In this document: in pieces, positions 16,716-45,657 of the stretch
Layout of the letters: each line of letters opens with the position of its first letter
How positions within the stretch are numbered: the first letter of the stretch is position 1
Origin: an uncultured Prevotellaceae bacterium
GTDB lineage: Bacteria; Bacteroidota; Bacteroidia; Bacteroidales; Bacteroidaceae
NCBI GenBank assembly: GCA_900319225.1
Contig: ONNV01000010.1
Location: 155,237-219,236 of the forward strand
Direction of reading: 5' to 3'
DNA: 64,000 nucleotides
Translations under genes and position numbers: made by a program
Notes under the pieces: generated by a model
What the model saw: only the letters and a program-made list of their open reading frames with translations
What the model was told of the DNA's origin: nothing
The model's database searches: none

Positions 16716-18053
16716 ATGAACTGGGAAAGACTACTATCCGCCAAACGTCTGGGAATGGAGGGCATCGAGTCGGCTCATAAAGATGACCGGTCGGCGTTCC
16801 TGCGTGATTATGACCGCCTTATATTCTCGGCTCCGTTCCGCCGTCTGCAGAACAAGACGCAGGTGTTCCCCCTGCCGGGCAGCGTATTTGTGCACAACCG
16901 TCTTACACACAGCCTGGAGGTGGCCTGCGTGGGCCGCTCTCTTGGAAACAACGTGTCACGCGGCATCCTGCAGCAGCATCCGGAACTGGCCGATACCTAC
17001 CTTTCGGAGATAGGTAACATTGTATCGGCCGCATGTCTTGCTCATGATATGGGTAACCCTCCGTTCGGTCACTCGGGCGAGAAGGCGATTTCGGCCTATT
17101 TCACCGAAGGAAAGGGCCAGATTCTTGAAAAGGAGTTCGCATCCAACCCCGGTCAGTGGACCGATATCATAAACTTTGAGGGTAACGCCAACGCTTTCCG
17201 TCTGCTGGCACACCAGTTCATCGGACGCCGTAAGGGAGGTTTCGCAATGACATACTCCACGCTGGCGTCGATAGTGAAATATCCCTATGCATCGATACTT
17301 GCCAACGGTAAGCACAAGTTCGGTTTTTTTGACAGTGAGGCCCCCATTTTTGCCCAAATAGCCGATGAATTGGGCATTATCCGCAAGTCAGCTCCCGGAG
17401 AGCCTCTCAATTATGTGCGCTATCCGCTGGTATTCCTGGTTGAGGCTGCCGATGACATCTGCTATCTGCTGATGGACCTGGAGGACGCTCACAAGCTCAA
17501 GCTGCTTTCAACTGAGCAGACCATCGGGCTGATGATGGATTTCCTCAAGCCTCAGGAACAGGAACATGCCAAGAGCATAATAGGCATGGTAACCGATGTC
17601 AACGAACAGGTCTCATACCTGCGTTCCAAACTGATAGGACTACTCGTTGAGGAGTGTACAAAAGTCTTCCTTGAGAACGAGCAGTCTATCCTGGACGGTC
17701 AGTTTGAGGGCTCACTGATAAAACATATCAGCCAGACTCCAAGGGATGCTTACCGCTGCTGCGCAGAACTCTCCAGGGAGAAGATCTACCGCTCACATGA
17801 TGTACTTGAGGTGGAACTGGCCGGTTTCCGCATCATAAGCACCCTGCTTGACCTTATGGTAGAGGCTGTGCTCAATCCCAAACGTGAGTATTCAATACTT
17901 CTCATAGACCGTGTATCTAGCCAGTATGACATAAACGCATCAGACATATACAACCGTCTGCTTGCCGTTCTGGACTACATAAGCGGAATGACCGATGTCT
18001 ACGCACTGGACATCTACCGTAAAATAAACGGTAACAGCCTGCCCGCAGTGTGA
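16716..18053 (+). CDS. dgt: Deoxyguanosinetriphosphate triphosphohydrolase-like protein
   Basis: HD-domain enzyme of 445 residues that cleaves dNTPs to deoxynucleosides and triphosphate. Motifs in order: FRRLQNKTQVFPL (dNTP site, about residues 39-51), NRLTHSLEVA with the first HD-fold His, and AACLAHDMGNPPFGHSGE (the HD pair and the downstream conserved His). It is divergent from dut; both genes act on dNTP pools, so a shared regulatory region is plausible. Which dNTP is preferred cannot be read from sequence. Five bases after its stop, a very long hairpin begins. Confidence 0.92.
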   Translation: MNWERLLSAKRLGMEGIESAHKDDRSAFLRDYDRLIFSAPFRRLQNKTQVFPLPGSVFVHNRLTHSLEVACVGRSLGNNVSRGILQQHPELADTYLSEIGNIVSAACLAHDMGNPPFGHSGEKAISAYFTEGKGQILEKEFASNPGQWTDIINFEGNANAFRLLAHQFIGRRKGGFAMTYSTLASIVKYPYASILANGKHKFGFFDSEAPIFAQIADELGIIRKSAPGEPLNYVRYPLVFLVEAADDICYLLMDLEDAHKLKLLSTEQTIGLMMDFLKPQEQEHAKSIIGMVTDVNEQVSYLRSKLIGLLVEECTKVFLENEQSILDGQFEGSLIKHISQTPRDAYRCCAELSREKIYRSHDVLEVELAGFRIISTLLDLMVEAVLNPKREYSILLIDRVSSQYDINASDIYNRLLAVLDYISGMTDVYALDIYRKINGNSLPAV

Positions 18054-18057
18054 TTCA

Positions 18058-18126
18058 ATGACCCAAAAGGGACAGTCCCCCTGTGTCATCTTGCATGGCA
18101 CAGGGGGACTGTCCCTTTTGGGTTAT
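18058..18126. repeat. Long perfect hairpin in a convergent gap (palindromic element A)
   Basis: The arms 18061-18085 and 18099-18123 are perfectly complementary over 25 bp. Counting one G-T pair, the stem extends inward to 29 bp around a 5-nt loop (18090-18094) and outward for three more pairs. The core reads AAAGGGACAGTCCCCCTGTG (18066-18085). It fills the gap between dgt (ends 18053) and the convergent aminotransferase (ends 18132). It can act as a bidirectional terminator, but the stem is far longer than needed. The core resembles that of the element at 43493-43592. Confidence 0.9.
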
Positions 18127-41764: not shown

Positions 41765-42379
41765 ATGACATTCACTCAGCAAAGTTTTGAGATTTTTGAC
41801 CGTGCAATAGCCGATTACCATAAGACGGATAATGTAGATACCCCTATATCCAATCCCTACAAGGAGAAAACAATAGAGTTCTATCTCTATCTCAAGAACT
41901 GGATTGATACCGTTCAGTGGCATCTGGAGGATATAATCCGTGACCCGCAGATCGATCCCGTTGAGGCATTGGCCATCAAGCGTCGCATAGACCGTTCAAA
42001 TCAGGAGCGTACTGACCTGGTTGAACTCATTGACAGCTATTTCCTGGAAAAATACAGCAAGGTGCAGACTCTGCCCGATGCTACAATCAATACTGAGAGC
42101 CCCGCATGGGCTGTAGACCGTCTTTCAATCCTGGCACTCAAGATTTTCCACATGAAGATTGAGGCCGACCGTACCGATACCCCGGCCGATCAGCAGCAGC
42201 GTTGCCGCGAGAAACTGGCCGTGCTTATGGAACAGAAGAAAGATCTCTCTCTCGCCATCGACATGTTGCTTGACGATATGGCCGCCGGACGTAAGTTCAT
42301 GAAGGTGTACCGTCAGATGAAGATGTACAACGATCCTACACTGAACCCTGTTCTTTACGGGCAGAATGGCTCAAAATAA
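41765..42379 (+). CDS. DUF4254 family protein
   Basis: 204 residues, all-helical, cytosolic, with no signal peptide. The DUF4254 family is recognisable from the pattern IEFYLYLKNWIDTVQWHLEDIIRDP, RIDRSNQERTDLVELIDSY and LSILALKIFHMKIEADR. The biochemical role is unknown. It usually sits beside a glycosyltransferase family 9 gene in Bacteroidetes, as here, hinting at a role in lipopolysaccharide core synthesis. Confidence 0.85.
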   Translation: MTFTQQSFEIFDRAIADYHKTDNVDTPISNPYKEKTIEFYLYLKNWIDTVQWHLEDIIRDPQIDPVEALAIKRRIDRSNQERTDLVELIDSYFLEKYSKVQTLPDATINTESPAWAVDRLSILALKIFHMKIEADRTDTPADQQQRCREKLAVLMEQKKDLSLAIDMLLDDMAAGRKFMKVYRQMKMYNDPTLNPVLYGQNGSK

Positions 42380-42461
42380 GACTCCAAAATACAAAAACGT
42401 TTTCGTTAAGCCAGACGAACAGAGGGAGTTTACTCACTCTGTTGTGGCGAGAAAAGGTCGG

Positions 42462-43484
42462 ATGAAATCCAATGTACTCTTGATACGCTTCTCCGCAATA
42501 GGAGACGTGGCTATGACCGTTCCCGTGATTCATTCATTGGCTACGGCTTACCCCAGTGTGCGTTTCACCATGCTCACAAACGTAAAGTTTGCCCCATTCT
42601 TTGAGCATCTGCCCGCCAACGTGGAATTCCTGGGCGTGAACCTGAAACAGGATTACCATGGATTCGGAGCAATGCTGCGTCTGTACCGCATGCTGCGTAA
42701 GAGACGTTTCGATGCTGTGGCCGACCTGCACGGTGTGCTGCGTACATCGGTCCTGTCATTCTATTTCCGTCTTGCGTTCAGGAAGGTGTGCCGCATAGAC
42801 AAGGACCGCCGCTCCCGTAAGCGTCTTACCAGGCTCAAAAACAAGGATCTTACTCCGCGTCTTACATCATTTGACCGCTATAAGGCTGTTCTGAACGGAT
42901 TGGGATTCAACTTTGATATCAACTTCAACTCAATATTCGGCAGCGGCAAGGGTGATCTCTCCAAGATCAGTTTCATTGGTGAGAAAGACTGCCCGTGGAT
43001 AGGAATCGCTCCTTTTGCAGCGCATAAAGGTAAGATCTATCCTCTCTACCTTATGGAGGATGTCATAGCTCAGCTTGACTCTGCCGGTATCTGCCGTCAG
43101 TTCGTGTTCGCTTATGGCCGTGAGGTTGTGCAGATTGAGGAGTGGACCAAGAAATACCGCTCTGTTGAGCTGGTTGACAACCGTTTGGGAATACAGGGTG
43201 AACTGATACTTATGAGTCATCTGAATGTGATGCTGGCTATGGATTCGTCAAATATGCATATGGCATCACTCACGAATACTCCGGTTGTATCAGTCTGGGG
43301 CGCCACACATCCGGTTGCCGGGTTCAAGGGATTCGGCCAGAAGGATGAGGACTGCGTCCAGCTGGATCTTCCGTGCCGTCCCTGCTCCATCTACGGCAAG
43401 AAGGAGTGCATCTACTCCGATTACCGCTGTCTTACCGGTATCGATCCTGATACCGTCTTTGCCAAAGTCAAAAAATATCTCTGA
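42462..43484 (+). CDS. Glycosyltransferase family 9 (heptosyltransferase-like)
   Basis: 340 residues from the ATG at 42462 (MKSNVLLIRFSAIGDVAMTVP, the usual N-terminus of the family). An in-frame ATG at 42366 would add 32 polar residues and overlap the DUF4254 stop; I consider it less likely. The C-terminal half has the GT-B acceptor/donor signature (WIGIAPFAAHKGKIYPL, ELILMSHLNVMLAMDSSNMHMASL, TPVVSVWGATHPV). It should add a heptose-like sugar to lipid A core or another glycolipid from the cytosolic side. A second hairpin element follows its stop. Confidence 0.88.
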   Translation: MKSNVLLIRFSAIGDVAMTVPVIHSLATAYPSVRFTMLTNVKFAPFFEHLPANVEFLGVNLKQDYHGFGAMLRLYRMLRKRRFDAVADLHGVLRTSVLSFYFRLAFRKVCRIDKDRRSRKRLTRLKNKDLTPRLTSFDRYKAVLNGLGFNFDINFNSIFGSGKGDLSKISFIGEKDCPWIGIAPFAAHKGKIYPLYLMEDVIAQLDSAGICRQFVFAYGREVVQIEEWTKKYRSVELVDNRLGIQGELILMSHLNVMLAMDSSNMHMASLTNTPVVSVWGATHPVAGFKGFGQKDEDCVQLDLPCRPCSIYGKKECIYSDYRCLTGIDPDTVFAKVKKYL

Positions 43485-43489
43485 TTTGC

Positions 43490-43605
43490 AGAGGGGCACA
43501 AAGGGGACGGTTCTATCTGTGCCCTTATTTTATATTCTGCTATTTTGAAGATATCGTTAAGGGCACAGATAGAACCGTCCCCTTTGTGCCCCTTTGTGCC
43601 CCTCT
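43490..43605. repeat. Long perfect hairpin in a convergent gap (palindromic element B)
   Basis: Arms 43493-43527 and 43558-43592 are perfectly complementary over 35 bp, with a 30-nt AT-rich loop. The right side carries a 10-bp tandem duplication (CCTTTGTGCC at 43581-43590 and 43591-43600), so the left flank (from 43490) can also pair with 43589-43605. It starts 5 nt after the GT9 stop and reaches the stop codon of the convergent WbqC gene (43604-43606). Its CAAAGGGGACGGT and CTGTGCC segments resemble element A at 18061-18123. Confidence 0.92.
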
Positions 43606-44200
43606 AAAGGTAGAGGGGGAATTCGGGTCCCATATTGAAGAGGAGGTCTACCGCGCTCAGGTTGGGCTGGAATCCGTATTTCTGTTTGAAAACCTGCCAA
43701 TAGGGGCGGTTTTGTGATGTCTGTTGCGGGTCTATGAGCTGGCGCAGGTCATTGATGCCCGTGGAGAGTCTTGAATAGGACTCCGTGAGTTTTATCTTCT
43801 TGTCCATACCCGCCAGCTTGAGAATGAGCTCTGTCAACTGCGTGTTGAAATCTATCAGGAACTCTATCCTGCGCTCATAGAACGGGCGGAAATCATCCTG
43901 GTAGTACATAAAGAACGGGCTGTTCATGTAGGCCGATTCCAGTGCGTTCCAGTGCTGGCGGCGCCAGTCACCATGGTCACTGATACGCACGTCTTTCATC
44001 AGCTGCTTTGGGCTGTCGGACTTTACTACCGGTATGGTAAGGGTCTGTATGCCACCTGCCGTGGCAATACGGCAACGGTTGCGGTAGGTCTGCTTGCAAT
44101 AGTTGTCATACTGCTCTATAAGAACATCACCGCCACTTTTGATGACGGTGAAGAAGTTTACAGGTGGCAGATATGCCGAGCAGAGCAGCGTATTATCCAT
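43604..44200 (-). CDS. WbqC family protein
   Basis: 198 residues. WbqC-like proteins occur in O-antigen and surface glycan loci; their activity is unproven. Features are CSAYLPPVNFF at the start, YDNYCKQTYRNRCRIATAGGIQTLTIPV, and DWRRQHWNALESAYMNSPFFMYY. The ATG at 44200 overlaps the lepB stop (TGATG); an in-frame TTG one codon earlier is ignored. Its stop codon is inside hairpin element B. Confidence 0.86.
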   Translation of the reverse strand: MDNTLLCSAYLPPVNFFTVIKSGGDVLIEQYDNYCKQTYRNRCRIATAGGIQTLTIPVVKSDSPKQLMKDVRISDHGDWRRQHWNALESAYMNSPFFMYYQDDFRPFYERRIEFLIDFNTQLTELILKLAGMDKKIKLTESYSRLSTGINDLRQLIDPQQTSQNRPYWQVFKQKYGFQPNLSAVDLLFNMGPEFPLYL

Positions 44201-45657
44201 CAATTGTATTTCTTGACTGCGCGGAACAGACGGTTCCAGCGGATCTTGCCTTTCTGTCCCCAGTGCTTGTCCTGGTCAAGTGACAGCCAGATGAATACCG
44301 GACGGCCCACAATATGGTCCTCTGGTACATAACCCCAGTAACGTGAGTCAAGGCTGTTATGGCGGTTATCGCCCATCATCCAGTAGTAATCCATCTTGAA
44401 GGTGTAGCTGGTAGCCTTCTCTCCGTTAATTAGTATGGTTCCGTCATGTTCCACCTTGAGGTCATTGGACTCATATACCCTGATGATACGCTCGTAGAGA
44501 GGCAGGTTCTCAAGACTGAGTTGAACGGTTTCTCCCTTGGCCGGAATCCAGATTGGTCCGTAATCATCCACAGTCCAGTGGTGATTCATGTTATGCGGGA
44601 ACATCCAATCAGATTCTGCCTTATCCCATGTACGTCGTGCTATGGTATCGGCTATATCCTTGCGCTTCTCCAGAATCTCCAACGCCTTAGCGGTAAGAGG
44701 AATCTCAACTATTCCCTTGCGGTTATATGAAGGTTTGAGACCGTCACTGCTCAGGTCCATTTTTTCCCTCAGCTCATCAGGTATGGGTTTGAGCAGTCTT
44801 ACCATATAGTTGTGCTGAACTGCGTCCGGCTGTTTGTTGGCAACTCCGTCCAGATAGATTATTCCATCCTTTATCTCAAGTGTCTGTCCGGGCAGTCCTA
44901 CACAACGTTTCACGTAGTTCTCACGGCGGTCTACAGGTCTTGTTATGACCTTTCCGAACAGGTTCTCGTGCTGCAGTATGATCTGGCGTCCAAGACTGTA
45001 GTAATAGTCATACAGGCGGCGCTGCTGTAGTACTGAGAGGGTATCGGGATCATAATACTTGTGCAGCATGTTGTTACTGTAATCCCGTCCCTCCTTGTAG
45101 GCCTGAATATAGTAGTCTATTACCTGTGTGTTGGTTACGACCGTATCGCCCGACGGGTAATTGAATACCACTATGTCATTCAGCTTTATCTTGCCAATTC
45201 CCTTTACGCGGTCATACGGCCATTGGGGCTTGTCAAAATAGCTCTTGCCGCCACCGGGGAACGTGTTCTGTGTGAGGGGCATGGTAAGCGGGGTCATGGG
45301 CTTGCGCGGACCGTAGGCCACCTTGCTTACATACAGATGGTCACCTATGAGCAGGGATTTTTCAAGTGATGAAGTAGGTATAGCGTAGTTCTGGAACAGG
45401 AATATGTTTACAAAGTATACTGCAACCAATGCAAATACAATTGCATCTATCCATTCAAATATCTGATACAGGGTCTTGTTCTTAAGGCTTTTCCACCATT
45501 TCCAGTTAATGATGCGTGTAACGAATGCATCAAAGATTAAAGGTATGAGTATAATTCCAAGCCAGCTTCTGACCCATATCAGGAACAGAACGTACAGGAT
45601 AAGGTAAACAGTTGCCTTGATCCAGTTCTTACGGCTAACCTCCTTCAGATTTTTCAT
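44200..45657 (-). CDS. lepB: Signal peptidase I
   Basis: Membrane protease that removes signal peptides. 485 residues, longer than E. coli LepB (324). Three N-terminal hydrophobic segments (about 14-30, 32-48, 70-88) precede the catalytic domain. Box B is IPTSSLEKSLLIGD, with Ser97 at the nucleophile position. The general-base Lys is in ENYVKRCVGLPGQ and the C-terminal box is GDNRHNSLDSRYWG. Insertions between boxes account for the extra length and are common in Bacteroidetes. It is upstream of WbqC by a 1-nt overlap and downstream of dapB. Confidence 0.94.
   Translation of the reverse strand: MKNLKEVSRKNWIKATVYLILYVLFLIWVRSWLGIILIPLIFDAFVTRIINWKWWKSLKNKTLYQIFEWIDAIVFALVAVYFVNIFLFQNYAIPTSSLEKSLLIGDHLYVSKVAYGPRKPMTPLTMPLTQNTFPGGGKSYFDKPQWPYDRVKGIGKIKLNDIVVFNYPSGDTVVTNTQVIDYYIQAYKEGRDYSNNMLHKYYDPDTLSVLQQRRLYDYYYSLGRQIILQHENLFGKVITRPVDRRENYVKRCVGLPGQTLEIKDGIIYLDGVANKQPDAVQHNYMVRLLKPIPDELREKMDLSSDGLKPSYNRKGIVEIPLTAKALEILEKRKDIADTIARRTWDKAESDWMFPHNMNHHWTVDDYGPIWIPAKGETVQLSLENLPLYERIIRVYESNDLKVEHDGTILINGEKATSYTFKMDYYWMMGDNRHNSLDSRYWGYVPEDHIVGRPVFIWLSLDQDKHWGQKGKIRWNRLFRAVKKYN

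Follow-up and report, generated by a model that had tools for sequence, protein, structure and literature searches.

Genomic context and structure of hairpin B

Hairpin B is located between the convergent genes of a family 9 glycosyltransferase (GT9) and a WbqC-like protein. Within the window, i.e. the whole 64-kb stretch of DNA analysed, only two inverted repeats reaching 20 nt were found at a distance limit of 300, and hairpin B is one of them. The features of the locus and the basis of their delimitation are as follows:

42366–43484, plus strand: glycosyltransferase family 9 gene (GT9, PF01075), flanking hairpin B
43490–43605, no strand: entire element (outer ends pairing as AGAGGGG / CCCCTCT; folds)
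43493–43527, plus strand: left REP, the left arm (sequence reading, repeat search, DNA fold of the arm)
43493–43502, plus strand: left-arm foot GGGGCACAAA, part of the left REP
43503–43513, plus strand: left-arm core GGGGACGGTTC, part of the left REP
after the core, within 43493–43527, plus strand: left-arm 3' part TATCTGTGCCCTTA, part of the left REP
43528–43557, no strand: spacer of 30 nt separating the REPs (repeat search)
43558–43592, minus strand: right REP, the right arm, i.e. the left REP inverted (core at 43572–43582, minus strand)
43581–43600, minus strand: tandem 10-bp duplication, a further GGGGCACAAA-type foot lying outward of the first one
43604–44203, minus strand: WbqC-like gene (PF08889), flanking hairpin B and convergent with GT9

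An earlier note on this DNA had described arms perfect over 35 bp and a duplicated 10-bp unit, and direct reading bears out both: 43493–43527 is the exact reverse complement of 43558–43592, and CCTTTGTGCC is doubled in tandem at 43581–43600. The repeat search returned arms of 39 nt (43489–43527 and 43558–43596; 97 % complementary, 30 nt apart), and complementarity extends further outward once one 10-bp unit is skipped (AGAGGGG from 43490, CCCCTCT to 43605). The stop codon of GT9 (TGA, 43482–43484) ends 8 nt ahead of the GGGG foot. That of WbqC (TAG on the minus strand, 43604–43606) has its first two plus-strand bases in common with the outermost arm; the note describes the element as supplying or abutting this stop.

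Folding of 43482–43612 yielded –86.1 kcal/mol for RNA (z –14.8, with 0 of 200 shuffles as good) and –49.8 for DNA (z –13.85), a structure far outside chance at this composition. The left arm by itself folds as DNA into a 7-bp stem (GGGCACA, 43494–43500; TGTGCCC, 43518–43524) around the core. An Rfam search of 43300–43800 (E up to 1) gave six matches, all below the gathering scores and mostly to microRNA hairpin models, which were taken as chance likeness to any long hairpin.

A dispersed family of paired REPs

The genome-wide repeat search proposed in the earlier note placed hairpin B in a large family: the exact 11-mer core GGGGACGGTTC occurs 143 times (71 + 72 on the two strands) in the host genome (2.53 Mb in 17 contigs, assembly 84.7 % complete), the reversed control 0 + 0 times. 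Correspondingly, AAAGGGGACGGTTC with at most one mismatch was found 61 + 63 times (backwards pattern 0 + 0), and the query 43480–43610 gave at least 139 matching pieces among the best 40 of 78 candidates scored. The exact AAAGGGGACGGTTC was detected in just 4 of 295 genomes of the order (3 of the 295 being other family members), with more than one copy in the host genome only; the core is hardly seen beyond the genus.

Copies for comparison were drawn from 66 fetched stretches and the window, in which 168 core matches (at most one mismatch) form 65 inverted pairs and 38 remain unpaired. Most pairs have spacings in one of several narrow classes (34, 47–56, 74–83 and 109–112), and a few lie at 139–148 and 262–332. 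According to their stems, 20 pairs including B belong to a GGGGCAC..GTGCCC class, 25 to a GG(A/G)GCC..GGCCCC class and 11 to a CGC..GCG class often built as tandem 21-bp units, and 9 pairs are mixed or of other classes. Members of the CGC class carry up to four head-to-tail 21-bp units opposite one inverted unit (C10:161065–161161, C14:72916–73012 and C7:89466–89541; L173, L190 and L149).

Each arm can be regarded as a REP in its own right, as supported by a constant core, CAAA-GGGGACGGTTC, held in a small stem whose sequence varies while its pairing is kept. Among 51 distinct left arms of the host genome, the 8-pair stem was formed in 76.7 % of cells (59.1 % when shuffled), and 75 cells were changed on both sides (40.6 when shuffled). 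The stem covariation score of 0.438, as against 0.183 for shuffled arms, was reached in 0 of 500 shuffles and was at most 0.184 when the stem was slid. In the same arms, neither the pairs with two-sided change (6, shuffled 6.4) nor the further pair types (18, shuffled 18.3) rose above the shuffles. Since these two measures match the shuffles and the arms are related, with the stem classes representing few related lineages, a single-REP hairpin is supported and independent compensatory events are unproven.

In the two main stem classes left arms agree more closely with their own right arm than with the right arms of other copies (0 of 10,000 permutations); in the CGC class own-arm matching is not significant (1764 of 10,000). 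In-place homogenisation of the two arms was considered and is unneeded, because the best-matching arm elsewhere (0.971 in the cac class, 0.961 in the cca class) is on average about as close as the own partner (0.960 and 0.922, respectively).

The 10-bp duplication in B represents a foot duplication of a kind that recurs among the REPs, and no mark of insertion. A second foot unit of at least 80 % similarity lies directly outside the first in 19 of the 168 core arms of the host genome; exact duplications occur in B, at C3:22364 and C9:83694, and in both hairpins of the transposase gene described below, and at C9:212911 and C13:110744 the outer foot belongs to another stem class than the inner one. 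AAA-GGGG is found at many foot boundaries and at the core start, and position –11 is A in 79 of 95 arms (flank counts). Slippage between such AAAGGGG-like words, or an exchange one unit out of register, would therefore suffice to generate the duplication. Two doublets (L196 at 1487–1630 and L132 around 1500) have an outer TGACCC-AA foot, as in hairpin A, outside their own foot, suggestive of feet from different families having been stacked.

Hairpin A (18058–18126 of the window) is a member of another dispersed family of palindromes, that of the GGGACAGTCCC type, with 89 matching pieces in the host genome. It is likewise located between convergent genes (ends at 18053 and 18132). No transposase gene framed by its GGGACAGTCCC-type core was found in the host genome; two related loci of the genus (L131 and L123) carry ACTGTCCCC on one side.

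Orthologous GT9/WbqC junctions

WbqC is encoded in 36 of the 37 genus genomes, the relatives being metagenome assemblies of 62–100 % completeness. Thirty WbqC loci were examined, of which 26 have GT9 adjoining. Nine of these 26 junctions are empty (L074–L080, L082 and L086), the two stop codons overlapping by 2 bp with nothing between them, and another nine hold palindromic inserts of varying type. The GGGACGGTTC core is present in six inserts (host genome, L081, L084, L087, L089 and L091), GGGACTGTCCCC in that of L085 and a degenerate core in that of L092; L090 contains only an unrelated longer palindrome, which is nested inside the REP pair in L081 and L087. The remaining eight junctions have short gaps or are unclassified. 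A palindromic element of about 200 bp (AGAACTTTTGGGGTATC...GATACCCCAAAAGTTCT) occupies the spacer of certain REP doublets (L154 around 1500–1800, L184, L151 and L178; also L081, L087 and L250) and stands alone at the GT9/WbqC junction of L090. Locus L088, from a genome close to the filled L081, shows a gap of 1 bp and a changed C-terminus of WbqC, which looks like an imprecise deletion that touched the WbqC end.

On a tree of GT9 and WbqC with several poorly supported nodes, insert presence requires 7 Fitch changes, as against a shuffled mean of 7.70 (766 of 2000 shuffles at 7 or fewer), and hence gives no indication of inheritance at this phylogenetic depth. A second convergent junction, represented by 8 two-gene loci among 30 examined, holds this core in the host genome and L250, other palindromes in L257, L258, L260 and L265, and none in L262 and L264.

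Insertion at a gene end, as suggested in the earlier note, agrees with the nine syntenic loci without insert and the 143 core copies in the host genome. From the proposed comparison with sister loci, the empty site was recovered and a clear target duplication was not: inspection by eye revealed CTT(T)A-like words at some junctions, of no fixed length and in strongly diverged interspecies DNA. The pattern named in the note as contrary to insertion, one hairpin shared by all relatives and differing by compensatory changes alone, is absent, given nine empty junctions and inserts of other types.

Placement at stop codons

The 72 core clusters of the host genome (gene calls from a crude longest-ORF script; three single one-mismatch core matches set aside as chance) comprise 24 in convergent, 39 in co-directional and 4 in divergent contexts, as well as 3 inside ORFs and 2 at stretch edges. 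Neighbouring genes in the window form 7 convergent, 37 co-directional and 6 divergent pairs, so that convergent contexts make up 24 of 67 clusters versus 7 of 50 window neighbours (p 0.0066). Clusters are flanked by 89 3' and 47 5' gene ends. For 64 two-ended clusters (those outside ORFs, starting with a plus and ending with a minus core), 63 of 81 3' ends versus 10 of 41 5' ends lie within –12 to +20 nt of a foot (p 1.7e-8), with median end-to-foot distances of 6 and 53, respectively; 15 clusters have a stop codon within this range on both sides. In 28 usable co-directional contexts (7 of 35 dropped for overlaps of more than 30 nt), the stop is the closer gene end for 23 copies and the start for 5, at median distances of 3 nt (stop) and 71.5 nt (start).

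This bias would arise in part from selection against insertion into coding sequences and promoters; true targeting of stop codons is possible. A wider scheme may be put forward tentatively and with considerable doubt: a group-5 RAYT, or single-stranded DNA at gene ends, might favour the last codon as a site for doublets, whereby genes would acquire both a stop and a 3' hairpin; one REP family might follow another at a given convergent junction; and the constant core might be the recognised word, with the stem drifting by paired changes.

The candidate transposase and its flanking hairpins

A single PF01797 (Y1/HUH) gene was identified in the host genome. On either side it has a hairpin with the core of B, the two being inverted relative to each other (85 nt, 91 % complementary), and a third copy of the core hairpin is located about 2.2 kb away. 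Its product has a Y1_Tnp domain with the motifs NHVH (HUH) and YIHQNP (Y), in agreement with the NH[LIV]H and YIH[QN]NP listed for TnpA_REP subclass 2.6 / RAYT group 5 in the available part of PMC6006769, and the protein thus fits this subclass by its predicted motifs. The NCBIfam model NF047646 (REP_Tyr_transpos) scored 52.9 bits, below its curated cut-off of 80, and no PDB match was found by sequence. Among named genomes, in which near kin may be absent, 44 loci were retrieved, the best with 35 % identity in a Lachnospiraceae MAG.

In the genus, 23 of 37 genomes have a PF01797 match. The flanking DNA of 30 among the 42 matches was inspected, and 28 of these 30 are HUH-bearing (L108 and L124, with no HUH motif found, were left out). 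The GGGGACGGT core lies on both sides of seven transposase genes from seven genomes, the host included, and on one side of two more. Other transposase genes are flanked by cores of the GGGACAGGTC, GGGGTCTGACCCC or ACTGTCCCC type, which group broadly by tree clade, the GGGGACGGT type being present in two clades and not one; none of the listed cores was found at 11 of the 28 HUH-bearing loci. In L030 (2424–2487), the transposase reading frame enters the flanking hairpin and obtains its stop codon there.

With core-rich defined as at least 14 exact copies, a cut set after the counts were seen, transposase genes with the core on both sides occur in 7 of 16 core-rich versus 0 of 21 core-poor genomes (Fisher p 0.0011). 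The contrast is weak for any PF01797 gene (13 of 16 versus 10 of 21, p 0.039), and three of the 16 core-rich genomes (G012, G028 and G034) have no PF01797 match. The hairpins framing the host transposase gene share the identical core and belong to the GG(A/G)GCC stem class, unlike B with its GGGGCAC stem; recognition of B would consequently depend on the core they have in common, or on a related gene missing from the assembly. A second transposase gene may indeed be missing, since the assembly is 84.7 % complete. B was probably mobilised by the transposase of its own genome or by a close relative of it.

Relationship to known repeat systems

The BIMEs and REPs of Enterobacteria consist of alternating inverted REPs that are located outside genes, often at 3' ends. 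The B family is similar in these traits and differs by its unrelated sequence and the absent GTAG foot.

REPINs, hairpin-forming doublets of REPs (Bertels and Rainey 2011, PMC3116915), are already known both as elements and in their folding. In the features covered by the accessible part of that study, the B family resembles them in its inverted REP pair with preferred spacer lengths and long hairpin, its association with a RAYT and its dispersal outside genes; compensatory changes between both sides are also reported there for REPINs. In distinction from REPINs as portrayed in that part of the study, the B family has no GT[AG]G foot word (in 95 arms no such guide word stands 5' of the foot and only A at –11 is common), embeds a constant core in a variable stem, lies close to stop codons and occurs in another phylum, the host order being deduced from the relatives and PMC6006769. 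It nonetheless displays the hallmarks of a REP doublet: an inverted pair forming one hairpin, a copy number far above chance and a framed RAYT gene, the flanking hairpins of which have the core of B and another stem class.

GTAG- and CGTC-tagged repeats are high-copy palindromes, the CGTC type being reported from Bacteroidetes (PMC3733652, in part). The B family shares the high copy number and palindromy, and differs in that neither tag, as given in that part of the source, is conserved at its foot (flank counts, –20 to –11).

Subclass 2.6 / group 5 occurs mostly in Bacteroidetes, and its genes are described as flanked by 'atypical secondary structures' with copies elsewhere in the genome (PMC6006769, available part). 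The host system agrees in its motifs and in flanking structures with genomic copies; consensus, doublet anatomy, cognate pairing by clade and insertion polymorphism go beyond that part of the account. An open-licence literature word search for GGGACGGTTC gave only unrelated titles among the matches listed, and no name for B's repeat family was found in searches of the open-licence PMC literature.

Origin and maintenance of hairpin B

Hairpin B is very probably a non-autonomous REP doublet (a REPIN or two-REP BIME) of two inverted REPs of about 33 nt and a short spacer, moved by a Y1/HUH transposase and surviving by stop codons, a reading derived from sequence comparison. The host's Y1/HUH transposase or a close relative would, now or recently, recognise the REP hairpins in single-stranded DNA, cut beside the foot and copy or move the doublet to new sites. 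Insertions would persist mainly by stop codons, chiefly between convergent genes, since they would break nothing there. At B, the doublet would have entered a site at which the stops of GT9 and WbqC overlapped by 2 bp, leaving both genes to end at separate stops at or near the two feet of the element; given transcriptional read-through, the hairpin would be situated at or just past the 3' end of both mRNAs.

The latter position could also mean that selection keeps the hairpin, whatever its origin, as a two-way 3'-end structure (terminator or exonuclease shield) of the convergent GT9 and WbqC transcripts. Consistent with such a role are the very stable stem, its exact siting between two stop codons, the family-wide proximity to stops, the differing hairpins found at this junction in several relatives and also at the second junction, and one weak terminator-like site on the minus strand (43493–43479). 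This site is a separate 5-bp stem and not the long hairpin, which is not itself listed by a scan covering loops of 3–8. In view of the 9 of 26 relatives without any insert, the lack of a T run directly after either arm and the absence of phylogenetic persistence, this explanation is judged rather unlikely, although not negligible.

A conventional MITE whose terminal inverted repeats are acted on by a DDE transposase encoded elsewhere in the genome would likewise be short, palindromic, dispersed and missing from empty sites; it is highly improbable here, as core hairpins frame a Y1/HUH gene in the host and six other genus genomes, the basic unit is a single REP whose own stem covaries, and a target duplication was not recognised by eye. 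An intrinsic terminator that is fixed and inherited by descent, as a strong hairpin at convergent gene ends might suggest, is excluded for practical purposes because orthologous sites are empty in 9 of 26 relatives, others hold non-matching inserts, more than 100 core copies exist elsewhere in the genome and the T run that follows the GC-rich stem of such terminators is absent directly after either arm.

Hairpin B is thus attributed to a REP doublet, and the family to which it belongs is well defined, of a known kind, polymorphic at an orthologous junction and with a group-5 RAYT as probable partner. The core and stem anatomy of the partner of this subclass, the series of empty and filled sites and the nearness to stop codons are new here. 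The partner of subclass 2.6 / group 5, termed 'atypical' and given no consensus in the available part of PMC6006769, now has a constant core, a covarying stem and an inverted doublet form, and its core type can be traced by transposase clade. Through the close association with stop codons, targeting and selection can be tested against each other, and the range of naturally empty and filled sites reveals turnover of such doublets between related species.
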